This document shows, piece by piece, positions 16,918-31,580 of a stretch of DNA of 51,795 bases (positions within the stretch are counted from its first letter, which is position 1; every line of letters starts with the position of its first letter). The stretch spans positions 1 through 51,795 of the forward strand of contig JADQBQ010000013.1 in the NCBI GenBank assembly GCA_016278505.1, given 5' to 3'. A program made the translations under genes and the position numbers. The notes under the pieces are model-generated. The model was not told where the DNA came from and ran no database searches. It saw only the letters and a list, made by a program, of their open reading frames with translations. This stretch comes from Clostridiales bacterium. GTDB lineage: Bacteria > Bacillota > Desulfotomaculia > Desulfotomaculales > VENG01.

Positions 16918-16970
16918 TACAAAGGAAGGGTTTATAAACCCTTCCTTCATTTCTTCAGGAGGTGCAGCTC

Positions 16971-17738
16971 TTGGAATACAAAGAGTTCGACATTATTGAG
17001 GTATCCCAAAAACTCGGGCTTAAATTCGTTAAACCAGGCCCCGGGAACGAAATAATTTACCGGTGCCCTTTTTGCGGTGATTCCCAGAAGAACCCAAACA
17101 AAGGACACCTGTATATCAATAAACGAGCCAACCAATTCAAATGTCAGCGTTGTGGCCAAACTGGTAACACAGTAAGTCTATGGGCTCAATACAAACGGAT
17201 AGATAATAAGCAGGCATACGAAGAATTGCGTAATAATGTCAGTGCCGGTCCCAGACATGTTCCCACCCAAAGCCCGAAGACGAAACCCAAAGAAGCAGAT
17301 ATAAGAGACCGCAACCGTACCTACACAGCCCTTTTAAAAATTCTTAAGTTAAGGCCGGACCACAAAGAAGACATTTTAAGACGCGGCCTTAAAGAAATTC
17401 AAATTCATCAAAATCTGTATAAGACAATTCCGCAAAACGCCCAATTTAGATGGAAAGTCACTCGGTTTCTTAAAGAAAAAGGGTTTCAGTTAGAAGGAGT
17501 GCCCGGTTTTTTTACCCGTAAAGGAAAATACGGTGTCTTTTGGGACTTTGTTTCACCCCCAGGGTATTTAATCCCCGCACGGGATAACAAGGGCTGGATA
17601 CAGGCCATGCAGGTAAAGCTAGATGACGGAAAATATATCTGGTTTTCCTCACACGGTATGCCAAACGGTACTTCCAGCCACGCCCCTGCACACTTTACGG
17701 GCGGCGAAGGAAAAATATGGATAACGGAGGGGCCGCTA
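16971..17738 (+). CDS. DNA primase, exon 1 (zinc finger and start of TOPRIM)
   Basis: The TTG start lies 8 bases behind AGGAGG. The first 65 residues are a CHC2-like zinc ribbon: C32-PFC35-GDS and C58-QRC61-GQTG. The exon ends in ITEGPL, the first motif of a TOPRIM catalytic domain (Glu plus Gly), and is then interrupted by a group II intron. Without splicing, translation adds 10 foreign residues and stops at 17771, leaving no TOPRIM active site. Spliced to exon 2 it gives a 376-residue primase. It probably primes the element's own replication. Confidence 0.8.
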
Positions 17739-20393
17739 GTGTGCGTTGTTCCTAGACAACCTGAATCGTAAGGTTCAACAAAACTAGGCAGTTGTATATT
17801 TTCAACTGAACTCTATGTCCAAAAAGACGGGGGAAGTTCCCGTCCGGATGGAAGGTTGGCCATCCAGCCCGGAGACTCCGACATGCACCTGAATACTATC
17901 GTTCTGGTGTATGAAGCTCGGTAGAGAGGCGGAACGAAACCTAAAGGGAGCAATCCCCATGGCAACAAGTACGTCCTGGGGCCATAAAACAGCTATGCCT
18001 ACTCACCAGGAACCATCGTATGTACGGCTCGAAACCTTCACGGCATCGAAAGATGCTGGCTTGCCATTGGCAGGTTCAGTCATAGCTATATGTTATTAAC
18101 GGAACAATAGCTATCCCAATCGCATAAACGATTGGAGTCCTTCGCCCTCCAACCAGGGGCAAAAGGACGACTGACGGGTCATAGATGGGGGCTAAAGCTG
18201 CTATGCAAGGCTAGGACATAGGGAACAACGGAACCCTGGTAGTGGATGTTAAGGAAGATAGAGTCCAATGCCACTCGATGGTAGGAAATGACCATCTAAA
18301 CTGGGGGGCAGCAGCCCGTAGTAGTGATGAATCTCCTGTAATGGGAGTGGAGCGAAGGGGCATAGTCATGCAAAATTATGCAATCAATCCAACTGTCCAG
18401 GAAGCCGCTGTGCTCACCTGACTAACGCCAAAAGCATATCTCCGAAAGGAGGTGATGCCATTGGCTCACAAATTGGACTATCCGAAGTCGGAAAGCGAAT
18501 TCCGGAAACTACAAGACGAGATGTTCCGGCTGTCCAAGGAAGCTCGGGAAAAGAATGATATCCCACGCTTCAAAGGTCTATTGGAAGTCATCTCATCCGA
18601 AACGGTAATCTTGACTGCAATACACAAAATCAAGACCAACCATGGGAGTCAGACACCTGGAAGTGATGGCGAAACCATGAGAGAAAATATTCTGGAAAAA
18701 GATTATCCAGAAGTTATTTCTCGTGTCCAGGAGTCTCTAAAGGACTACCACCCAGCACCGGTGCGAAGGGTATTCATCCCTAAGCCAGGTAAAACTGAGA
18801 AGCGTCCGCTAGGCATTCCAGCCGTCATTGACAGGGTAATCCAAGAGTGCGTAAGACTGGTAATTGAGCCAATACTCGAAGCACAGTTCTTTGCCCACTC
18901 CTATGGATTCCGTCCTATGCGGGACGCTCACATGGCACTCGGGAGGATAACAGACTTAACACACAAAACAGGCTATCACTGGATAATCGAAGGTGACATT
19001 AGCAAGTTCTTTGATGACGTAAACCATACCAAGCTTGTTAAAAAGCTTTGGCATATGGGAATTCGTGATAGAAGAGTCCTGATGATCATCAAGGCAATGC
19101 TGAAGGCCGGCATCATGGACGAACTAAGTGTAAATCCTAAAGGAACTCCGCAGGGCGGAATTATTTCGCCCTTGCTGGCAAATGCATACCTGAACACCTT
19201 AGACCAGTGGATAATCAGGGAATGGGAAAGCAAAGAAACTAAGACTAGCTATTCAAGGAAATGCCACAAAATACGGGCACTAAAGAAGTCCAGCAAACTC
19301 AAACCAGCCTACCTGATTAGATATGCCGATGATTGGTGCTTGGTTACATCGTCCAAAAGTAATGCAGAAAAGTGGAAATGGCGAATTGCAAAATATCTGA
19401 ACTGTTTACCTTTAAGGTGGTTAAAGGAAAGAGCAGAACAGGTTATATAACGAGAACGAAACCCGACCCAGATAGGTTAAAAGCAAAAATAACTGAAATA
19501 CGCCACGAAATCAAAGGGTTGAAAAAGTTTAAACCAAAAACTAAAGGCGGGAAAGAACGCCTAATAGACAATATAAACAAAATCAACTCAAAAATACGAG
19601 GCGTAATTCAATATTACGAAGCGGCAACATGGGTATATGTGGTACTAAAAAAATACGCCATGTCAATGAAATACACATCATATAAAGCACTCAAGGGGCA
19701 TGGTGGAAAATGGGTAACAGCAGATGAGGTAAGTAATCTGACCTCAGTTCACTCCAACTATAAAACTAAAATACCAGCAATAAAACACTATGATCAAATG
19801 ATTGGTATTACTTCGCTGGAATTTTGTAGCTGGAAAGAAATCAAACTTAAAAGCCCAAAAGAAACTCCATTTACCCATGTAGGACGGGAAATATACAGAA
19901 AACGTACTTGTAAAAAACCACTGGCATGTAGAGCAGACGAACTGCTCACTGTATCATTATCCCAAATGATTGCCAGGAGTCTCACTAATAAAATGTACAA
20001 CTTCGAATACTATCTCAACCGCCCATATGCTTTTAACCGAGATAAAGGCAAATGCAGGATATGTGATGAAATATTATGGCCCAAAATAGTCCATATTCAT
20101 CACATCAATCCCAAGCTTCCTCTTAATCTGGTCAATCGTGTACCTAATCTGGCTAGCATTTGTAAAACATGTCACGACAGAATACACAATAACAGGAACT
20201 ATTCGTTTCTCAATAAAAAGACCTGGAATAAAATCCAAAACTTCAGAAAAAAGTTGGATATGGTTAAATAAGGCAGGTGGCACTGCCAGCGCATGATGGA
20301 ACGCCGGATGAGGTGAAAGTCTCATGTCCGGTGTGAAGTGGGGGAAAAGAGCACCTACGGGTAATGCTGAGGTTGTCTCTTACCTATCACTAT
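17739..20393 (+). mobile_element. Group II intron inserted in the primase gene
   Basis: The 5' end begins GTGTGCG, matching the GUGYG consensus, and the 3' end is CACTAT, matching the AY rule. Cutting at 17738/17739 and 20393/20394 rejoins CCG CTA with AAA GCA GAC in frame (EGPL-KADVAS), which fixes both borders. A domain V-like hairpin lies at about 20299-20336 (GCCGGATGAGGTGAAAGTC, then its partner), with a domain VI-like stem after it. Bases 17772-18450 carry the ribozyme domains and no gene; the encoded reverse transcriptase is in domain IV. It inserts at the TOPRIM active-site codons, a sequence that varies little among primases. Confidence 0.9.
18455..20271 (+). pseudogene. ltrA: Group II intron reverse transcriptase/maturase/HNH endonuclease, frame broken
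   Basis: The first frame (to 19450) carries RT motifs: RRVFIPKPGKTEKRPLGIP, EGDISKFFDDV, GTPQGGIISPLLAN and catalytic YADD at 19323. The second frame (19400-20271) carries the maturase domain (IRGVIQYYEAATWV) and an HNH endonuclease (CRICDE..., HIHHINP, CKTCHDRIHN). Between YADD and the maturase thumb about 25-35 residues expected in this family are missing and the frame shifts, so a deletion near 19390-19410 is likely. The start is ATG 18455 or TTG 18461, behind AAAGGAGG. The product is probably inactive, so splicing may depend on a maturase acting in trans. Confidence 0.85.
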
Positions 20394-20756
20394 AAAGCAG
20401 ACGTAGCATCTACCTTAATGAACAACACTCCATTTGTTGGTATCCCCGGAGTAAACGCCTGGGAAGAAGCCGGCAGGATATTAAACTCCCTGGGAACCAA
20501 AGACTTCATAGTAGCCTTCGATTCTGATGCAAAGGAAAACCCACGAGTGGCCGATGCACTGCAAAAATTCCTGCAACACCTAAAAACCAATGGCTTTAAC
20601 CCACAGAACGCATCCTGGCCGAAATCATTCGGCAAGGGTATAGACGACGCCTTATTAAAACTTCACAAAAAAGAGGTAAACTCTATAACCTTTCTGGTTA
20701 ACGGGGTACCCGTAACAATAAAAAGAACCGTTACGACAACGGTTTCTGTGGGTTAA
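20394..20756 (+). CDS. DNA primase, exon 2 (rest of TOPRIM)
   Basis: The exon starts at AAA (K of EGPL-KADVASTL) and continues with FVGIPGVNAWEEA and FIVAFDSDAKENPRV. The D-x-D of FDSD is the second TOPRIM metal-binding motif. It has no start codon or ribosome site of its own, so the domain is made only from spliced RNA. The last residues are followed, after 16 bases including a GGAGG ribosome site, by the gene at 20773. Confidence 0.8.
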   Translation, partial: KADVASTLMNNTPFVGIPGVNAWEEAGRILNSLGTKDFIVAFDSDAKENPRVADALQKFLQHLKTNGFNPQNASWPKSFGKGIDDALLKLHKKEVNSITFLVNGVPVTIKRTVTTTVSVG

Positions 20757-22620: not shown

Positions 22621-23307
22621 ATGTTATGGAGCCAAAAGTACCTTAAAAAGTATTGTATTGAAACACAACCGACTATGGCCGTAAAAGCCAAAGAAGAAGC
22701 AATCCAGTACGGGGTTAGGAATTCAGAATTGACCGGAGTCTTTGCTTCTATTTTGGGAAATATTCCGGATGAAACAATGACATTTCTGTTAAAGCAAGGG
22801 TTGCGAAAATTAGCAGAAATGTCACCGGAGGAATTAACAAAACTACCTGGTATCAGCCAAGAGAAAGCGCTACGCCTTACAGCATCCTTTGACTTAGCAC
22901 GGCGTATGGCAGGTTTAATGCCCGATGACAAAGTATCGATCTGGATGCCGGAAGATGTTGCAGAAATGCTCATGGAAGAGATGTGCTATTTGGATAAAGA
23001 ACATTTTGTGGCACTTCTGCTAAACACTAAAAACCAGTTAATCGAAAAAGAACTAATTTCCATCGGAACTCTTGACAGCTCAATTGCAAAACCACGAGAG
23101 ATTTTTAAGCTAGCCATTCGCAGAAGTGCTGCCGGGGTTGTACTAGTTCACAACCATCCCAGTGGGAGTTGTGAACCAAGTGGTGAAGACGAAAAAGTGA
23201 CCAATAGATTAGTTGAGGCCAGTGAGATAATCGGTATCCCGATACTGGATCACATCATTATTGGTTATAAGAAATTCGTCAGTTTTAAAGTCGAAGGCTT
23301 AATATAA
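22621..23307 (+). CDS. radC: RadC-family JAB/MPN+ protein
   Basis: The 228-residue protein has helix-hairpin-helix motifs at about residues 60-90 (KLPGISQEKALRLTASF) and a C-terminal JAMM metal site: VLVHNHPSGSCEPSGED, giving His-x-His and Asp. RadC-like proteins are common on phages and integrative elements; their precise role is unsettled. The JAB fold is also that of deubiquitinases, and JAB proteins are partners in bacterial ubiquitin-like operons such as the one at 29.9-31.6 kb. A link between them is inference. Expression is controlled by an unusual hairpin leader. Confidence 0.85.
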   Translation: MLWSQKYLKKYCIETQPTMAVKAKEEAIQYGVRNSELTGVFASILGNIPDETMTFLLKQGLRKLAEMSPEELTKLPGISQEKALRLTASFDLARRMAGLMPDDKVSIWMPEDVAEMLMEEMCYLDKEHFVALLLNTKNQLIEKELISIGTLDSSIAKPREIFKLAIRRSAAGVVLVHNHPSGSCEPSGEDEKVTNRLVEASEIIGIPILDHIIIGYKKFVSFKVEGLI

Positions 23308-23852: not shown

Positions 23853-24950
23853 ATGCAAATCACAGTTCAAAAGAAAGCCCTTGAAAAAATGCTTAACGCG
23901 AGCACCCAGTCAGTCAACCCCAAGTCTCCAATTAACGCTATCCAAGGGGTTCTGTTAACAGCTAAGGGTGACACAATTAAAATGACCGGTACCGACCTTG
24001 ATATTACTATCACCAGTATCGGTGAAGCTGAAGTTATCGACGAAGGAGATGTACTTATCCCGGCGAAAAGATTGAGCGACCTGGTTAAAAACCTTCCTGA
24101 CGGCTCCATTAACATGGAATCTAAAGAAGAATCCGTTGAAATTCACTATGGTAAAAAACAAAAAAGTACAATTAAAACCTTTCCAGTAGAGGAATTTCCA
24201 GCAACCGAACAACCAGATTCTTTAATATCAGCTAAATTTAATACAGGGGAGTTTTTAAGTGCAGTTAGTAAAGTATATTTTGCTGCAGCTGACGAAGAAA
24301 GCCGTCCGGTATTAATGGGTGTGTTATTTAATTTTACACCCTTCGGGTTAGATATCATAGCAACGGACACACACAGGTTAAATATCATCTCAACACCTTC
24401 CGAAACAGATGAAAAACAAGTCGTCGTCCCCAAAAGAACAATCGAAAAAATAATCCGGCTGTGTAAAGATGAAGAGATAACTGTCTCAGTAGGTGAATCC
24501 ATTGTGCAGTTTGCAGCCGGTAATGTAATTATAAGTACCCGCCAAATTGCAGGGAAATTCCCACCTCATAACACAATCATCCCAAAAGAATTTTCAACTG
24601 AATGCGAGATTGATACAAAAGAAATTCTGGGTAGCCTTAACCGTGCAGTTTTTATGGTTCCACTCACAAAACAAATTCCTGTAGTTAACCTTTCTATTGC
24701 TGATAACACATTTACAGTAAACGCCCAGGATGATAACTCGGAACTAAATGAGTCATATGATTGCAATCAAACCGGTGACGAACTAAATATTTCATTCAGT
24801 ACTAAATATCTACACGACCTTCTAAGCGTAATAAACTCAAATAAAGTTACACTGAAATTTAATGGCAACCTCTGCTACGTCCAACATGATAATTTTTGTT
24901 CCGTTGTTGTAGCCGTGGTACCAGTCAGTGCAGTCAAAGAATCTGCGTAA
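23853..24950 (+). CDS. dnaN: DNA polymerase III beta subunit (sliding clamp)
   Basis: The 365-residue length is standard for a beta clamp. Signatures include MQITVQKKALEKMLNASTQSVN, the GTDLDITI strand, VLIPAKRLSDLVKNLP, VKVYFAAADEESRPVLMGVLF-like middle domain, IIATDTHRLNII, and a C-terminal NSNKVTLKFNG. The start at the ATG follows GAGGGGAG; the ORF opens 18 bases earlier without need. A chromosome needs only one dnaN next to dnaA, so this copy belongs to the element and would give its replisome a private clamp. Two nearby proteins carry clamp-binding-like motifs (30529 and 26019). Confidence 0.93.
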   Translation: MQITVQKKALEKMLNASTQSVNPKSPINAIQGVLLTAKGDTIKMTGTDLDITITSIGEAEVIDEGDVLIPAKRLSDLVKNLPDGSINMESKEESVEIHYGKKQKSTIKTFPVEEFPATEQPDSLISAKFNTGEFLSAVSKVYFAAADEESRPVLMGVLFNFTPFGLDIIATDTHRLNIISTPSETDEKQVVVPKRTIEKIIRLCKDEEITVSVGESIVQFAAGNVIISTRQIAGKFPPHNTIIPKEFSTECEIDTKEILGSLNRAVFMVPLTKQIPVVNLSIADNTFTVNAQDDNSELNESYDCNQTGDELNISFSTKYLHDLLSVINSNKVTLKFNGNLCYVQHDNFCSVVVAVVPVSAVKESA

Positions 24951-24963
24951 AAGGAGTGTTTAA

Positions 24964-26001
24964 ATGGCCAGGCAGGAATCTAAAGCCAAGGGTGGGTTTT
25001 ACCCTACCCCTGACGACGAAATGAACTTGGTATGCCAAAAATTTTCTATTGACCTAGCTACCCGTGCTTTTTTAATCGACCCGTGTGCCGGAAACGGTAG
25101 TGCCCTGAAAATGTTAAGTGACCACTTAAAAAGAAAGGGCGGCCTACCCGAGACATACGGGATCGAACTGGAAGAAACACGGGCTCAAGAAGCCAAAGAA
25201 GTTTTAGATCATGCCGTTAAGTGTGACTACAACCAGGCTCGGACAAGCACGAAAGCCTTCTCTGTACTTTGGCTGAATCCACCATATGACCACCATGACG
25301 GTGACCGGGTAGAGGTTACATTCTTACGTGACCTTACAGACCCTGTAAGCGGCAAGCTAATGGTAGGAGGGGTCTTGGGCTACTGCATCCCGCAGAAAGT
25401 TCTAAAAGACGCCGCACCTATATTGGCCGCCAGGTTCGATCACCTGTCAGTCTTTAGGTTTACGGATAAAAGCTACCCCACATTTAAACAGGTAGTTGTC
25501 TTCGGTATACGCCGGGGCACCGTAAACCGTGGCAAGGAAGCCAAAAAAGTACGGACATGGTTAAAATTCTTAGGAGAACAAGGCCCGGATGCAGTAAAAT
25601 CTTTAGATACACCAACGGCTCCATACAACGTACCACCGGCCCCGGACAAAAAAATCATCTTTAAAGGCTCTCTTACAGATATTAAAGAGATAGCCGATAG
25701 CCTCGAAGATTCACCGGTTTGGGATGAGATCAACTATCTGCTATTACCTTACAAAAAAGCTGCAATCATGCAGCCGCCGGTACTGCCGCTGAAACCAACC
25801 CACGACGCCATTGCTATATCAGCAGGCGTTATAGGCGGCAACATGGGAAGCCACCTCTTAACCGGTCGTTCCAAAAAAGTTTCGGACAAAGAATTCATAC
25901 CACCGGACGAAAAAGGGAAGGGTGAGAAGATCATCGAGAAGGAACGGTATATCACAACCGTCCGTGTTTTCTCGCCCACCGGAGTATACGATCTTGAATA
26001 A
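24964..26001 (+). CDS. N6-adenine-type DNA methyltransferase (DUF6094-like)
   Basis: The 345-residue protein opens with KGGFYPTPDDEM, has the SAM-binding DPCAGNGSAL at about residues 39-48 and the catalytic LWLNPPYD at 103-109, as in N6-adenine methyltransferases. The later half (QVVVFGIRR) continues the Rossmann fold. No separate target-recognition domain or restriction gene is apparent. Such orphan enzymes on elements can protect DNA from host restriction or mark replicated DNA. It is 14 bases downstream of dnaN and 18 bases upstream of the helicase gene, so the three form an operon. Confidence 0.85.
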   Translation: MARQESKAKGGFYPTPDDEMNLVCQKFSIDLATRAFLIDPCAGNGSALKMLSDHLKRKGGLPETYGIELEETRAQEAKEVLDHAVKCDYNQARTSTKAFSVLWLNPPYDHHDGDRVEVTFLRDLTDPVSGKLMVGGVLGYCIPQKVLKDAAPILAARFDHLSVFRFTDKSYPTFKQVVVFGIRRGTVNRGKEAKKVRTWLKFLGEQGPDAVKSLDTPTAPYNVPPAPDKKIIFKGSLTDIKEIADSLEDSPVWDEINYLLLPYKKAAIMQPPVLPLKPTHDAIAISAGVIGGNMGSHLLTGRSKKVSDKEFIPPDEKGKGEKIIEKERYITTVRVFSPTGVYDLE

Positions 26002-26018: not shown

Positions 26019-28949
26019 TTGAAAATCAAAGTGGATGATATAGGGCGCACTTTCGAGTGCGCCCTACACTTTGCAGCCTACAGCGGGTTAAATCTGTTAA
26101 TAGTCAGTTTCGCAGGACCGGGTACCGCCGTTCAAGCAGTAAAGTCAAATATTGCGGCCGGCAGAAAAACTCGAATTTTTAATGAGGATGATGAAGAAAT
26201 CGGATTCTTTGATCCCCCCCGGGGGATGTACCGGTCCATGGAGAGAAAGTCCGGTGATGTATTCCACGCAATAGTACTCCACAAATCAGCAGTCTTTAAT
26301 GAAAACCCAACAAACCCGACTATAATAGCCCCGGACGGGGATATACGAACTGCAGTTGGACGGTTTATAACGTCAAAATTCGCTGTACCGTCCGAGTGGG
26401 AGACACAATACCTGGACCTTTTAGAATACCAGGAAGCAACTACAATATGCAGTCCGCACATTAAAGCCTGGCAGAACGCCAGAGTAATTGAAATAACCGG
26501 AGTTAAAGGCTCGTCAACTGACCAGGTAACCGACGAAACTCTGGTTGAAAGCATTGAATCTGCTTTACACACTGGCCAACTAAAAATCCCAGAATCGGAA
26601 GTTAAAGGCCGGTTTGACCCGGAGTGGACGATGAAAGAATACCTCCGGGAAAACGCCAAGATTCTCGCGGATCAAGTCAAAAAAATTAAGCCAAGACACA
26701 ATTTCGGGAACCTTGACCGTGCAATCGGGGAAATGGAACGTATCCCGTTCCCGGCCCAGGGCCATGTTATTCAGGGTATGGTTAACACCTTAAAAGAACA
26801 GGACATGGCAATCGCCTCCTGCGACATGGGTACGGGGAAAAGTATTATGTCTCTCGGTGTAGTGAATATACTGCACCACCAAAGAGGAAAAGGCCCCATG
26901 TCAGTCCTTTTAACGGCACCATCAAATACTATACCTAAATGGGCCACGGGAGAAATTCAAAGCACACTGCCTGATGCCAAAGTCCGTATAATTAAAACCT
27001 TTAAAGACGCAATACGATACGCAGAAAAAGTTAAACAAGGTTACCAACCAAAAGGCTTGGAATTTGTACTATTAAGCCTCGACCGGGCAAAGCTGGGACC
27101 TGAACCTTGGTGCGCAGCTACCTGGAAACGGGTATCATCTACTAACGAATACGCCTGGCACTGTCCCGATTGTGGGGAACCACTCCCCGACCCGGACCAC
27201 AAAAAGGAAGATTTCCTCCGGTGGCACGGATTCGCCTGTGGCACCCCTCCCATCAAAAAAACAAATCTCCTTCCCAACGGTTTACCTAAAGGCTTTATTC
27301 CAAAATGGATTTTCCCGTCCAAGACAAGGAAATGCCCCTACTGTGAAACCCCCCTATGGCGACCGGCATTAAAACAGCGGGGTGAGACAAACAACAAACC
27401 CCGGTGGTATATCAGCTTCATCTTCAGGCAATTAAAAAAGCACTTTGACCTTTACATTGCAGATGAAGTTCACCAGGCCAAAGCAGCCGACTCCGGTCGT
27501 GGCGATGCTTTTGTTCAACTACTAAAAGCTAGCAAGAAAGTGCTGTGCCTGACCGGCACCCTGGTAAACGGTATGTCCACAAGCGTAAAAGAACTACTAT
27601 GGCGGACAGACCCCAAATCATTAATCAGGGAAGGGTTTGACTTCTCTTCGGGTACTATCAAATGGGCTCAGGAATATGGGGTGCTGGAAAGAGTAACCCG
27701 GCTTGACGACGGTTACGACGAAGGCGTGGTAACCCGTCGAAAGAAGAACGTGACCACCAAAGAAAAACCCGGTATTGCCCCCGAGTTAGTGGTCACGCAC
27801 TTACTACACCGGGCAGCATTTTTAGAACTAAAAGACCTGGAACTCCCACTGCCCGAATTGAACGAAGTCCCGGTAATAATCACCCCAGACGATGACCACC
27901 TTGATGCCTATAAAACATTCCACACCGAACTTCGTAAGGCTTGTGGCAGAGCATACGCCGCAGGGGTACCCGGAGCCTATTCACGGTTTCTACCCGAAAC
28001 ACTGGGGTATGCAAATACACCGCATCTTGGTGCAGAAGTAACGCTGCGAGAAGGGTCAGAGGAAGAGGAGCTTATCTACGCGCCCGCCTTCCCGGAGGAT
28101 TATTATAACGCTAAAGAACGGGAAATGGTGCGAATCGTTCAGGATAACCTCGCCCAAGACCGTGGATGTATTATCTACTGCTACCATACTCAACAGCGTA
28201 AAAGCCACCATAGAATTAGACAGGTATTAGAAGACCACAGTATTGAGAGCCATGTTTTAGAATCCGGTGTAAGCCCGGAAAAGCGGATCGAATGGCTGGC
28301 CCGAAAGGAAGAAGAAGGGGCAAAAGTCATTATCTGTAACAATAAATTAGTAGAACACGGGTTAGATTTATTAGCCTGGCCCACTATTATCAACATGGAA
28401 CTCTCGGACGACATTAACACTCTCCGGCAGGCCAATAGAAGAAACTGGCGTTATGGTGCCACAAGAGAATGCCGCATCTATTACCTGGTGAACAACCAAA
28501 CCCAGGAAATGATCCAGTTTAAAAGATGTATGTTGAAACGCGCCCATGCACTAATGACCGAAGGCCGGTTAGACCGGTCGGAACTTGCAAGCTACGGGCG
28601 TGACGAAAGAACGTCTCTAGCCGCCGACCTTGCTGACTGTCTTGCCGAAGAAGGCATGGAAGACCGCTGGAAAGAGCTTGCGGCCAAGGACGTGGAAGAC
28701 GTGGAAACAGTTAAAGAAAAAGATTTCATGAGTGTTTTGAATGAAACAAAGCACCAACTGGCCCTAAAAACACTCAAATTATGCGGTTTCTCCGAAGAAG
28801 AAATAAATGAAGCATTAGGGGAACCAGAAGACGCAGAAACATTTACACGACCAACAATGCTAGAACTTGCCGCATTCCTGCCTAAAAAGAAAAAGAAACC
28901 TCGGAAAAAAACATTGCCGGAAGGTTATGTCCAGCCGGCTTTGTTTTAA
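26019..28949 (+). CDS. Large SNF2/DEAH-like helicase with zinc ribbons and a C-terminal clamp-like motif
   Basis: The 976-residue superfamily 2 protein has motif I MGTGKS at about 270, motif II DEVH at about 482-485, LCLTGTLVNG as motif III, and a C-terminal RecA lobe with NKLVEHGLDLLAWP and RQANRRNWRYG. Two cysteine pairs (CPDCGEPLPDP near 382 and CPYCETPLW near 438) form an inserted zinc domain. The last residues are VQPALF, close to the beta-clamp-binding consensus QxxLF. The start is TTG after AAGGGGG. SNF2-like enzymes move along duplex DNA; here it probably works with the adjacent methyltransferase and clamp. Confidence 0.85.
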   Translation: MKIKVDDIGRTFECALHFAAYSGLNLLIVSFAGPGTAVQAVKSNIAAGRKTRIFNEDDEEIGFFDPPRGMYRSMERKSGDVFHAIVLHKSAVFNENPTNPTIIAPDGDIRTAVGRFITSKFAVPSEWETQYLDLLEYQEATTICSPHIKAWQNARVIEITGVKGSSTDQVTDETLVESIESALHTGQLKIPESEVKGRFDPEWTMKEYLRENAKILADQVKKIKPRHNFGNLDRAIGEMERIPFPAQGHVIQGMVNTLKEQDMAIASCDMGTGKSIMSLGVVNILHHQRGKGPMSVLLTAPSNTIPKWATGEIQSTLPDAKVRIIKTFKDAIRYAEKVKQGYQPKGLEFVLLSLDRAKLGPEPWCAATWKRVSSTNEYAWHCPDCGEPLPDPDHKKEDFLRWHGFACGTPPIKKTNLLPNGLPKGFIPKWIFPSKTRKCPYCETPLWRPALKQRGETNNKPRWYISFIFRQLKKHFDLYIADEVHQAKAADSGRGDAFVQLLKASKKVLCLTGTLVNGMSTSVKELLWRTDPKSLIREGFDFSSGTIKWAQEYGVLERVTRLDDGYDEGVVTRRKKNVTTKEKPGIAPELVVTHLLHRAAFLELKDLELPLPELNEVPVIITPDDDHLDAYKTFHTELRKACGRAYAAGVPGAYSRFLPETLGYANTPHLGAEVTLREGSEEEELIYAPAFPEDYYNAKEREMVRIVQDNLAQDRGCIIYCYHTQQRKSHHRIRQVLEDHSIESHVLESGVSPEKRIEWLARKEEEGAKVIICNNKLVEHGLDLLAWPTIINMELSDDINTLRQANRRNWRYGATRECRIYYLVNNQTQEMIQFKRCMLKRAHALMTEGRLDRSELASYGRDERTSLAADLADCLAEEGMEDRWKELAAKDVEDVETVKEKDFMSVLNETKHQLALKTLKLCGFSEEEINEALGEPEDAETFTRPTMLELAAFLPKKKKKPRKKTLPEGYVQPALF

Positions 28950-28990: not shown

Positions 28991-29090
28991 AAGGAGGGAC
29001 TAGTATTTTACAATTCCTTTGCAAAAGCTGGCCGCATATTTTAACCTTTGCCATACTTTATTTAATTACTGCCTTTATGGGGGTTTTACG

Positions 29091-29408
29091 ATGAAGATAA
29101 ACATCCCTAATCTAATTAACACCCTGACCCAACACGAAACATCTGAAGAAGCTATTATCACAGCAAAGGTTAACCCAATTCTGGATATATTAGCTCGATT
29201 CAATTCCAGCAATTCTGTGGATTTTAGTCAATTTACAGACGAGGATATCAGAGACACCATGGATGCTATTTGGAGTTATGACCCCGAGGAAGGGTGTCAA
29301 GAAAACGATCCTAACAACCCGATAGTGGTATTCATGGACACCGCTAATATACGGGAAAAAATTGTTAAGTTAAAACCCAAAGGTAGTGATACAAGTGATT
29401 TCATATGA
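29091..29408 (+). CDS. Hypothetical protein, first gene of the PRTRC-like cassette
   Basis: The start is the ATG after GGGGG; the ORF extends 72 bases upstream without a good site. The 105-residue acidic protein (NLINTLTQHETSEEAIITAKVNPILDILARF, ending DTANIREKIVKLKPKG) has no recognised domain. Its 3' end overlaps the next gene by 23 bases, so it is part of the operon leading to the E2-like, ubiquitin-like and E1-like genes. PRTRC cassettes often begin with small unassigned proteins (protein E and others); equivalence cannot be shown here. Confidence 0.55.
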   Translation: MKINIPNLINTLTQHETSEEAIITAKVNPILDILARFNSSNSVDFSQFTDEDIRDTMDAIWSYDPEEGCQENDPNNPIVVFMDTANIREKIVKLKPKGSDTSDFI

Positions 29409-29868
29409 AGAACAAAACGAATTCCAGACTAAGCTAGACCACCTGCGATGTTTAAAAGCTATGTATGACGCCGGGTTCGATGTGAGGGATATAATATTTG
29501 CCCCTGACTATCCAATGTATACGGAAACACACTTTTTCATGGCAGTTTTAAAGAAGTTGTTTAAAACCCAAACGATTTTAGAATCAGAAGAACCAAAATT
29601 CGGTATACCCTACATGGAAATATTTCTGGAACAAGACATTCCTGATCCGGAAGTTGTAGAAAAACCACTCAAAGAAATGGTCAATCTTGAAGAAGACATC
29701 GAAAGTGGTTTCTTTCGGGAATTCCCTTCGGTCCATAATTTCGGTTTTGTATTTAACCACAAGGGAAACTGTATTGGGTTAGTGTTAGAAATATACGACC
29801 AAAACCTTACATTTTACCCGGAAGTTAAAAAATTAATTGAGTTAAAATCTAAAATTAGAGGTGGTTAA
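29386..29868 (+). CDS. Hypothetical protein, second gene of the PRTRC-like cassette
   Basis: The start is GTG (29386 or 29395) within the previous gene. The 160-residue protein is acidic and mostly helical, with a repeated-looking middle (FFMAVLKKLFKTQ, PYMEIFLEQDIPDP) and a strand-rich end (FGFVFNHKGNCIGLVLEIYD). Overlap upstream and the 4-base gap to the E2-like gene indicate translational coupling. I do not recognise the family; a cassette-specific function is inferred from position only. Confidence 0.55.
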   Translation: MIQVISYEEQNEFQTKLDHLRCLKAMYDAGFDVRDIIFAPDYPMYTETHFFMAVLKKLFKTQTILESEEPKFGIPYMEIFLEQDIPDPEVVEKPLKEMVNLEEDIESGFFREFPSVHNFGFVFNHKGNCIGLVLEIYDQNLTFYPEVKKLIELKSKIRGG

Positions 29869-29872
29869 AAAT

Positions 29873-30529
29873 ATGGAAAACCACGATTTATTCATCCGGC
29901 TACGAGATAACGAAACGATTACCGTCTGGCAAACCGGTCCGGTAAAAACTCCGGCGAAACCCGTACTGCCTCAAGAACTAGCAAAAATATTTTTCGATAA
30001 CGTACACGATTTTGAACTTGAAACTCCCGTTTTACCCAAAGGTTGTATCTATTACGGGAAACAGGTTAACGGCAATACTTTTGTTGTTTTAGAAAGGGAA
30101 AAGCAACAGAGTAACGTCTACTATGAAACCACTGAATTGAAAAACGTCGGGTTTCCTAAATTGATCCTAGGCGTGGAAGTTAATGAAGGGAAAATCCAAA
30201 AAACACTCCTGGCAGCGGTAAAAGATATTGTCATCACCAAAAACACTGAACTGTACTATTACCCGTTCAGCAATGTACATCACAATTTCCACATTTGTTG
30301 GGGCAATTATATGATGCACCAGATCGAAGAATTATTTCAACTCGGCAGCCTGGTGGACGTGTTTTTAAGCCTTAAAATGAACGACAGTCTGTATCGTCAT
30401 GCTGCTAAAAAACCGTACCGGCAACTATTAACCGAACTTCAGGGCAAAGAATTTCCTGACGACTTACTTGACCCCGTACATTATACTTTTCAGGAATTTA
30501 TAAACCAATTAACCAAGGAGGCGTTTTAA
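29873..30529 (+). CDS. PRTRC system protein B (E2-like)
   Basis: The 218-residue protein contains TLLAAVKDIVITKNTELYYYPF, then NVHHNFHICWGNYMM, a pattern of the Prok-E2 family D/PRTRC protein B, in which a strand-turn with Y-x-P-F-x-N-V is followed by G/N-x-I-C-x-G-N. These proteins share the fold of ubiquitin-conjugating enzymes. The Cys of HICWGN, near residue 139, could be the thioester residue; I cannot verify this. It is directly upstream of the ubiquitin-like gene with a TAATG overlap, so the products are made together. Confidence 0.7.
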   Translation: MENHDLFIRLRDNETITVWQTGPVKTPAKPVLPQELAKIFFDNVHDFELETPVLPKGCIYYGKQVNGNTFVVLEREKQQSNVYYETTELKNVGFPKLILGVEVNEGKIQKTLLAAVKDIVITKNTELYYYPFSNVHHNFHICWGNYMMHQIEELFQLGSLVDVFLSLKMNDSLYRHAAKKPYRQLLTELQGKEFPDDLLDPVHYTFQEFINQLTKEAF

Positions 30530-30855
30530 TGAAAGATCAACAGTTATCACTCTTTGGAGAAGAAAAAGAAGAAACTTGTAAAGCTTCATGTGACGCTGAA
30601 ATATCCGCAGAAGACGTTGGCATTGAAACTAAAACCTCAAAAGAACCCAAAGACAAGCTTCCTGATTACCCCCGGGTGGTATGCTACGTAGGAAGACAAA
30701 AAACATTTCCGCCCGAAATGAGCCTGGAACAGATCAGGAAAGAACTTCAAAAAGTATATCCTGAACTACGCAAAGGGAAGACCGATATGCAGTATGAGAC
30801 AAAAAGTAAAACTGTCATGGTGTATCCAGTAGTAAAAGCAGCAAAGGCGGGGTAA
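30529..30855 (+). CDS. PRTRC system protein C: ubiquitin-like protein with clamp-binding motif
   Basis: The C-terminal 65 residues (YPRVVCYVGRQKTFPPEMSLEQIRKELQKVYPELRKGKT, quoted in pieces: PRVVCYVGRQKTF and LEQIRKELQKVYPELRKG) fit the prokaryotic ubiquitin-like family called PRTRC C. The protein is 108 residues, longer than most members because of a roughly 45-residue N-terminal arm. That arm begins MKDQQLSLFGEE: QLSLF is the exact consensus pentapeptide for binding the beta sliding clamp, and the element encodes its own clamp. The C-terminus ends in A-K-A-G rather than Gly-Gly. Its start overlaps the E2-like stop by one base. Confidence 0.7.
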   Translation: MKDQQLSLFGEEKEETCKASCDAEISAEDVGIETKTSKEPKDKLPDYPRVVCYVGRQKTFPPEMSLEQIRKELQKVYPELRKGKTDMQYETKSKTVMVYPVVKAAKAG

Positions 30856-30860
30856 CCATA

Positions 30861-31580
30861 ATGATCGATATAAGTCAATACAAAGACTATATTATCGTCC
30901 AGGCAGGAGCCGGGGGGAACGGGAGTTTAATAGCCCTTTTACTGTCCCGGCTAATTGCCGGCCTGAATATTAATCCACAGTACACCATACTTGACGGTGA
31001 CACCGTGGAAAAGAAAAACCTTACAAGGCAACATTTCGCAATTAACGATATAGACCGCAACAAAGCTGAAGTCCTGGCAGAAAGATACAGCACGCATTTC
31101 AACATTAACATTCAGTACATGGACAGCTACATTGAATCCGTTGAATCACTATATCCTGTACTCGGGCACAACTTTGGCACCCTACCGATCCTGATAGGTG
31201 CAGTAGACAACCACAAAGCCCGGAAAATCCTGCACGAAGCCTATAGCAAACTTAACACAGCTTGTTATATTGACTGCGGTTGCGAAGAGACTTACGGCCA
31301 GGCGGTCATTGGCTACAAAAAACTCGGGCAGGAATACCTGAAACCTGCGGCCTACTATTATCCAGAGATGCTAGAAGACACAGCCCCGCCACAGGTTGGA
31401 TGCGCGGAAGCACCGGTACAGGACATTTCAGCTAACATTTTTTCAGCAGCAGCCGTATTTTTTTATCTCAACAATATTCTTGCATTTAAGGCAATACCAG
31501 CCCAAAAGGTGACTTTCGACGCACAAACGATGGTAATGCGACCCGATTATATTCAGGAAAGAGGGGTTCAAAGTGCTTAA
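30861..31580 (+). CDS. PRTRC system ThiF/E1-like protein
   Basis: The 239-residue protein has the ThiF/E1 nucleotide-binding core: IIVQAGAGGNGSLIA (Gly-rich loop at 11-20), ILDGDTVEKKNLTRQHF with the acid and Arg that contact ATP and the modifier's C-terminus, and LIGAVDNHKARKIL. Cys candidates for a thioester are in YIDCGCEETYGQ and VGCAEAP. E1-like enzymes adenylate the C-terminus of a ubiquitin-like protein; the partner is encoded 6 bases upstream. A GGCGGGG ribosome site precedes the ATG. Its 3' end overlaps the next gene by 8 bases. Confidence 0.85.
   Translation: MIDISQYKDYIIVQAGAGGNGSLIALLLSRLIAGLNINPQYTILDGDTVEKKNLTRQHFAINDIDRNKAEVLAERYSTHFNINIQYMDSYIESVESLYPVLGHNFGTLPILIGAVDNHKARKILHEAYSKLNTACYIDCGCEETYGQAVIGYKKLGQEYLKPAAYYYPEMLEDTAPPQVGCAEAPVQDISANIFSAAAVFFYLNNILAFKAIPAQKVTFDAQTMVMRPDYIQERGVQSA

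Follow-up and report, generated by a model that had tools for sequence, protein, structure and literature searches.

A ubiquitin-like protein with a candidate sliding-clamp-binding peptide on its N-terminal arm, encoded on the same element as dnaN

The window (the whole stretch of 51,795 nucleotides that was analysed) encodes a ubiquitin-like protein with a consensus sliding-clamp-binding pentapeptide close to its N terminus, and the majority of the homologous arms that we collected carry a motif of the same form. We consider it likely, with a probability of roughly 0.75, that this protein is a ubiquitin-like modifier that doubles as a client of the sliding clamp. Judging from the motif and the clamp sequence, the arm probably binds the hydrophobic pocket of the element's own DnaN, and possibly that of the host as well. 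The features discussed are collected in Table 1.

The modifier is a protein of 108 aa encoded at 30529–30855 on the forward strand (encoded product MKDQQLSLFGEEKEE...), and its N-terminal residues are MKDQQLSLFGEE. The start codon is secure, since a strong ribosome-binding site (AAGGAGG) lies a few bases 5' of the ATG, which shares bases with the stop codon of the E2-like gene before it (TAATG) and is the sole start codon of the open frame 5' of the domain. The first-pass annotation had reported QLSLF at residues 5–9, which is correct, but the range it gave, 30538–30555, translates as QQLSLF; the pentapeptide itself begins at 30541. Among the likely genes of the window, Qx[SDNTA][LIM]F is found in the modifier and at the C-terminal end of the helicase (QPALF) only, and the remaining matches fall in minus-strand open reading frames without supporting evidence.

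About 45 residues precede the domain in the window modifier, which bears out the earlier description of an arm longer than is typical of the family: the PRTRC_C model has 66 positions, and the PRTRC_C protein of Cupriavidus is 74 residues long and has no arm. Mean pLDDT over residues 1–40 is about 43–52 in the structure prediction, an indirect sign that the arm is probably disordered. The domain is predicted to fold as strand-strand-helix-strand-strand with a pLDDT of about 85, and its fold matches are mostly ubiquitin, SUMO and ISG15, at modest scores (Z 5–6; Foldseek E 0.0095 at best). No sequence relative of the domain was found in the PDB. Against TIGR03738 (PRTRC_C) it scores 15.2 bits (E 0.018), under the curated cut-off of 45.95 bits; by comparison, a Bacillus homologue scores 13.4 bits and the Cupriavidus control 117.7 bits. 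A profile-profile comparison of the domain with PRTRC_C is weak, covering 23 columns with just three sequences on one side. On these scores the window modifier is a distant relative of PRTRC_C, and not a PRTRC_C by the curated cut-off. The glycine G108 is invariant among the homologues; it is the final residue of the window modifier and precedes the JAB domain in fusions.

Table 1. Positions of the modifier, its parts and the neighbouring features of interest in the window
Feature	Position	Strand	Evidence or remark
RadC-family JAB-domain protein	22621..23307	+	Only JAB domain among the window proteins scanned
Element-encoded sliding clamp DnaN	23853..24950	+	TIGR00663, 216.8 bits; peptide-pocket residues largely kept
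DUF6094 DNA methyltransferase-like protein, same gene block	24964..26001	+	PF19587; homologues on cluster-bearing plasmids
Helicase with C-terminal QPALF, second candidate clamp client	26019..28949	+	Tail at 28932-28949, after a basic linker
Partner protein X, small and conserved, with an acidic-hydrophobic tail at the C terminus	29019..29408	+	Homologues at the equivalent place of other plasmids
Conserved partner protein Y	29386..29868	+	Homologues in the same position
E2-like protein (Prok-E2_D / PRTRC_B-like), with Cys146 as candidate catalytic residue	29861..30529	+	PRTRC_B, E 1e-6; Cys unchanged across 10 homologues
N-terminal arm of the ubiquitin-like protein, probably disordered	30529..30663	+	Low pLDDT; unalignable among homologues except for the motif
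QLSLF, consensus sliding-clamp-binding pentapeptide, residues 5-9	30541..30555	+	Translation; same as the B. subtilis PolC motif (PMC12309361)
Ubiquitin-like (predicted beta-grasp) domain, last residue conserved glycine G108, then stop	30664..30855	+	Weak PRTRC_C match; predicted structure
E1-like ThiF-family adenylyltransferase (PRTRC_ThiF-like), candidate Cys181	30861..31580	+	PRTRC_ThiF, E 2e-23

The genes for E1-like and E2-like proteins adjoin that of the modifier. Both proteins score under their NCBI curated PRTRC cut-offs, and the clamp motif is absent from both. In the E1-like protein the glycine-rich loop, D45, D47, N53, K68 and C181 are invariant from the window to Cupriavidus. The wider neighbourhood consists of replication and recombination genes, including dnaN, Rad52, the helicase and the methyltransferase. 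In many Bacillales and Paenibacillales homologues a JAB protease domain is fused to the modifier after a conserved ...KKG, the point where the free-standing versions stop. One homologue is annotated as a MoaD/ThiS family protein.

Some further observations concern the same stretch. The C-terminal tails of partner protein X (SDFI, DDFI, DEDFF, DIFI and DDLFI, in the window and in loci L011, L012, L015, L016, L029 and L038) recall the C-terminal tip of SSB; the window's own SSB ends in NDVPF. At 16962–20756 a primase/Toprim-like gene is apparently split by a group II intron, and the reverse transcriptase gene within the intron is itself interrupted (18452–20271).

Homologues of the modifier were found by tblastn on large plasmids of Bacillus, Paenibacillus and Thermobacillus, and a search with the E2-like protein gave 48 plasmid records, mostly from Bacillota. 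Queries in these first rounds were the full-length protein, a modifier-JAB alignment or the neighbouring genes. For the genome sampling, the query was a profile built on the ubiquitin-like domain alone, therefore the arm played no part in finding those homologues. The gene between E2 and E1 was then taken from the plasmids, from 18 genome-contig loci and from the sampled genomes, which gave 48 arms, 45 of them nonredundant. No homologue was found among viral contigs and phage records, and of 398 sampled genomes of the window's own phylum only the window itself matched.

Clamp-binding peptides have been described by the consensus QL[S/D]LF, or more generally QxxLF, and the QLSLF of B. subtilis PolC binds DnaN with a KD of 3.8 uM (PMC12309361). 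Using this definition, and 5000 shuffles of each arm as expectation, QL[SD]LF was found in 3 of the 45 arms (shuffled mean 0.00) and QxxLF in 17 (0.31 expected). The form Qxx[LI]F, in which the widening to [LI] at position 4 was chosen after the arms were seen, occurs in 31 of 45 arms against 0.52 expected, with a maximum of 5 in any shuffle. Register controls remained at background (Qxxx[LIM]F in 2/45, Qx[LIM]F in 1/45). The 45 arms are evolutionarily non-independent; clustering of the ubiquitin-like domains at 50% identity gave 13 clusters, 10 of which include the motif. The motif starts anywhere from residue 2 to residue 66, and the arms are otherwise unalignable. Exact QLSLF is also present in two Paenibacillales arms, and QLNLF and QLALF occur too. 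Scoring homologous arms for the motif, as had been proposed from the window alone, thus gave a strongly positive outcome, and the most similar homologue found (43% in the domain) carries QLALF in its arm. The two further QLSLF copies lie deep in the arms (residues 66 and 53) of divergent ubiquitin-like proteins from Paenibacillales genomes (L075 and L076).

The motif is not universal, as 14 of the 45 arms (about 30%) have no Qxx[LI]F. Several Paenibacillus arms and that of Planococcus keep just [DN][LIM]F, and most of their plasmids carry dnaN. The Q is absent from the clostridial members outside the window (Thermoanaerobacterium, Clostridioides and Subdoligranulum). Furthermore, the full peptide may exceed the standard clamp motif, because in many Bacillales and Paenibacillales arms the conserved stretch runs on to D[LI]FSxF. 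Three loci (L011, L030 and L034) only seemed to have lost the motif: group II introns are inserted just after the motif, and the 5' exons of these split modifiers read MTKVEQTDIFS, MTIEQTDIFS or MKDAKQTDIF. The introns, located right after the clamp-motif codons, span about 6527–9419 in L011, about 7203–9890 in L030 and about 7202–9890 in L034. A motif serving the JAB part is disfavoured, because free-standing modifiers (those of this window, B. licheniformis and C. oceanisediminis YPW-V2) also carry it.

The first-pass annotation had placed dnaN on the same element, and the gene is confirmed there, with its ATG at 23853. It is the second of two dnaN genes in the window's genome. The encoded protein is 23% identical overall to E. 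coli DnaN, with which it shares L155, T172, H175, R176, L177, P242 and P363 (E. coli numbering), while V247 is conservatively replaced by Ile, the C-terminal pocket positions V360 and M362 by Ala and Val (both still nonpolar), and G174 by Thr. The assignment of residues to the peptide pocket follows what is generally known of the E. coli clamp. By this comparison the window DnaN retains most of the pocket.

Using a DnaN profile, dnaN was detected on 18 of 20 cluster-bearing plasmids, compared with 190–523 of 72,556 plasmids by tblastn, a method less sensitive than the profile, whose count varied with the query. The two plasmids without it are P. lautus pAZOPL1 and B. laterosporus pAZOBL1. Two or more dnaN genes are present in each of the 12 cluster-bearing genomes examined. 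In a Bacillales sample, at least two dnaN genes were present in 9 of 11 domain-positive and 50 of 288 domain-negative genomes (Fisher p = 1e-5), and in 7 of 8 positives (p = 5e-5) after removal of the two seed genomes and one doubtful match. On seven annotated Bacillaceae and Planococcaceae plasmids the gene order is dnaN, X, Y, E2, modifier(-JAB), E1, with 1.6–1.75 kb from the end of dnaN to the modifier, and in 14 of 18 genome loci dnaN lies upstream of the modifier on the same strand. The association of dnaN with the modifier cluster is statistical as well as positional. The motif in homologous arms, the retained pocket and this association together lend good inferential support to the original suggestion that the modifier is tethered to the clamp. 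They suggest a bacterial ubiquitin-type system at the replication fork of large Bacillota plasmids, usually with a clamp gene of their own.

The helicase may be a second clamp client. Nearly all of its complete homologues on cluster-bearing plasmids (L024, L027 and L081–L110) have a basic linker followed by a Q-x-x-F/L-type tail, such as QLAFDF, QLTFDF, QLMFDF, QYAFNF, QLAFELF or QLSLFDLF, and several carry an additional QLDLF, QINLF or QVSLF. These tails suggest that the helicase of the element also seeks the clamp.

In the PRTRC cluster proteins of Cupriavidus and Deinococcus, no terminal clamp motif was seen. Clamp binding is thus not general in the PRTRC family, because the canonical PRTRC_C proteins of these two genera have no arm, and a claim covering all PRTRC systems was rejected. 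On a plasmid of Nostoc sp. C052, the protein encoded just 5' of an arm-less PRTRC_C-like protein ends in QLSLF (L043:1761-2255); dnaN is located about 4 kb downstream of the E1 gene, and a nearby methyltransferase begins with MQLSLL. In cyanobacteria the clamp motif may thus reside on another subunit, as seen in this single sequence. A Rhodoferax plasmid (NC_007901.1) has a PRTRC E1 gene and dnaN together, and Pseudomonas megaplasmids match the dnaN query as well as the PRTRC E1 query.

Other explanations of the arm have to be weighed. A chance origin of QLSLF in a low-complexity arm is so improbable that we reject it: about 10 of 288 other open reading frames of the same plasmid loci do have Qxx[LI]F among their first 70 residues, but both the shuffles and the register controls stand against chance, and the domain clusters argue against the arms being one recent, unselected lineage. 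The motif could instead be real, as Q-x-[DNS]-[LI]-F, but dock another partner, such as E1, E2, the JAB protease, the helicase or the clamp loader, for instance so that the modifier is oriented for its transfer or cleavage. All of these partners are co-encoded, the D[LI]FSxF stretch of Bacillales and Paenibacillales is longer than a clamp pentapeptide, and several arms have D[LI]F without Q. We nevertheless find this unlikely, since Q1, [LI]4, F5 and the strict register agree with the published clamp motif, exact QLSLF, QLNLF and QLALF are found, linkage to dnaN is beyond chance, and the helicase, an unrelated family on the same elements, has a similar terminal motif.

About as unlikely is that the modifier remains unconjugated and that its arm is a competitor or decoy that keeps host polymerases or repair proteins from the pocket. 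Competition for the pocket would be expected of a free clamp peptide carried by a small soluble protein, and the small protein SocB, which blocks elongation when bound to the clamp, is a precedent (PMC9690074). However, the genes for E1-like and E2-like proteins with invariant cysteines closely flank that of the modifier, and the invariant C-terminal glycine, joined to a JAB domain in many homologues, is the layout of a conjugation system. We regard it as very improbable that the protein is a sulfur carrier of the ThiS/MoaD kind, with a clamp motif incidental to its chemistry. ThiF-type E1 proteins commonly serve sulfur carriers, and the MoaD/ThiS annotation of one homologue would fit, but ThiS and MoaD end in GG whereas the modifiers here have a single-glycine KKG end. 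A conserved-cysteine E2-like protein, often with a JAB domain, in plasmid clusters and a neighbourhood of replication genes also speak against a sulfur carrier.

For the modifier as a clamp client, it had further been proposed that it modifies proteins at the clamp. This is plausible, given the retained cysteines of E1 and E2 and the conserved C-terminal glycine. We think it close to an even chance, though somewhat short of it, that the peptide serves to direct the charged or conjugated modifier to the clamp where the DNA of the element is being replicated. This role is proposed because it is the modifier that has the motif, whereas E1, E2 and the JAB domain lack it, and because unfused modifiers keep it. 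The activated modifier would be recruited to the clamp and then attached to the clamp itself or to clamp-bound proteins such as the polymerase or the helicase. Alternatively, the modifier would be a handle that gives any modified protein a tether to the clamp. In the Bacillales fusions, the JAB protease would release the modifier at ...KKG and could later remove it. Ubiquitination of PCNA in eukaryotes leads to a polymerase swap at stalled forks. One could speculate that the purpose here is to favour the replisome of the element, or, by analogy, to swap polymerases at stalled forks. Slightly less probable than the recruitment role itself is that the system is a ubiquitin-type conjugation dedicated to the clamp of a mobile element, and an independently evolved counterpart of PCNA ubiquitination and SUMOylation.

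The motif and the linked clamp give PRTRC-type systems a concrete and cheaply testable address, the clamp of large-plasmid replication. If the reading is true, control of sliding clamps by the ubiquitin family has arisen at least twice, and large Bacillota plasmids have a private replisome with their own clamp, a clamp-seeking helicase and a clamp-seeking modifier.

Among known systems, the cluster is related in gene order and sequence to the PRTRC system (TIGR03735–TIGR03738: ubiquitin-like C, E2-like B, ThiF E1 and JAB A). It differs in that the window scores are all below the NCBI curated cut-offs, no gene for PRTRC ParB or protein F was recognised nearby with the models applied, the window modifier has a long arm with the clamp motif, dnaN is linked, and many Bacillales versions fuse JAB to the modifier. 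Searches of the open-licence literature gave neither a functional study of PRTRC systems nor a report of a bacterial ubiquitin-like protein at the clamp. Bacterial E1, E2 and JAB proteins are also encoded together with a ubiquitin-like or ubiquitinated protein in CBASS Cap2/Cap3 and Bil systems, whereas here the neighbourhood is one of replication and recombination on large plasmids, with no nucleotide cyclase or effector among the annotated neighbours.

The modifier has its peptide consensus in common with bacterial clamp clients (PolC, DnaE, Pol IV/V, MutS and others). The position of the motif differs, being N-terminal on a probably disordered arm here, C-terminal in PolC and internal in DnaE. 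The system is near two known kinds, PRTRC-type clusters and clamp-motif clients, yet it is of no client type known to us; we know of no clamp client that is a ubiquitin-like modifier.

The modification of eukaryotic PCNA by ubiquitin and SUMO is conceptually alike, as members of the ubiquitin family act there at a sliding clamp; in the present system conjugation is a candidate activity. The modifier of PCNA has no clamp-binding peptide, and E3 ligases give specificity. A further parallel is human SDE2, whose ubiquitin-like domain contains a PCNA-interacting PIP box and is cleaved behind its diglycine when bound to PCNA (PMC5131917). SDE2 is eukaryotic and its likeness is conceptual rather than by sequence; its motif is located inside the ubiquitin fold, it has no dedicated E1 or E2, and it is cut by a cellular deubiquitinase. 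It nevertheless combines a ubiquitin-like unit, clamp binding via a short motif and cleavage from a downstream part after a terminal glycine, and its PIP box has no first Q, like the Q-less arms described here. Of the systems compared, SDE2 is the closest conceptual parallel.
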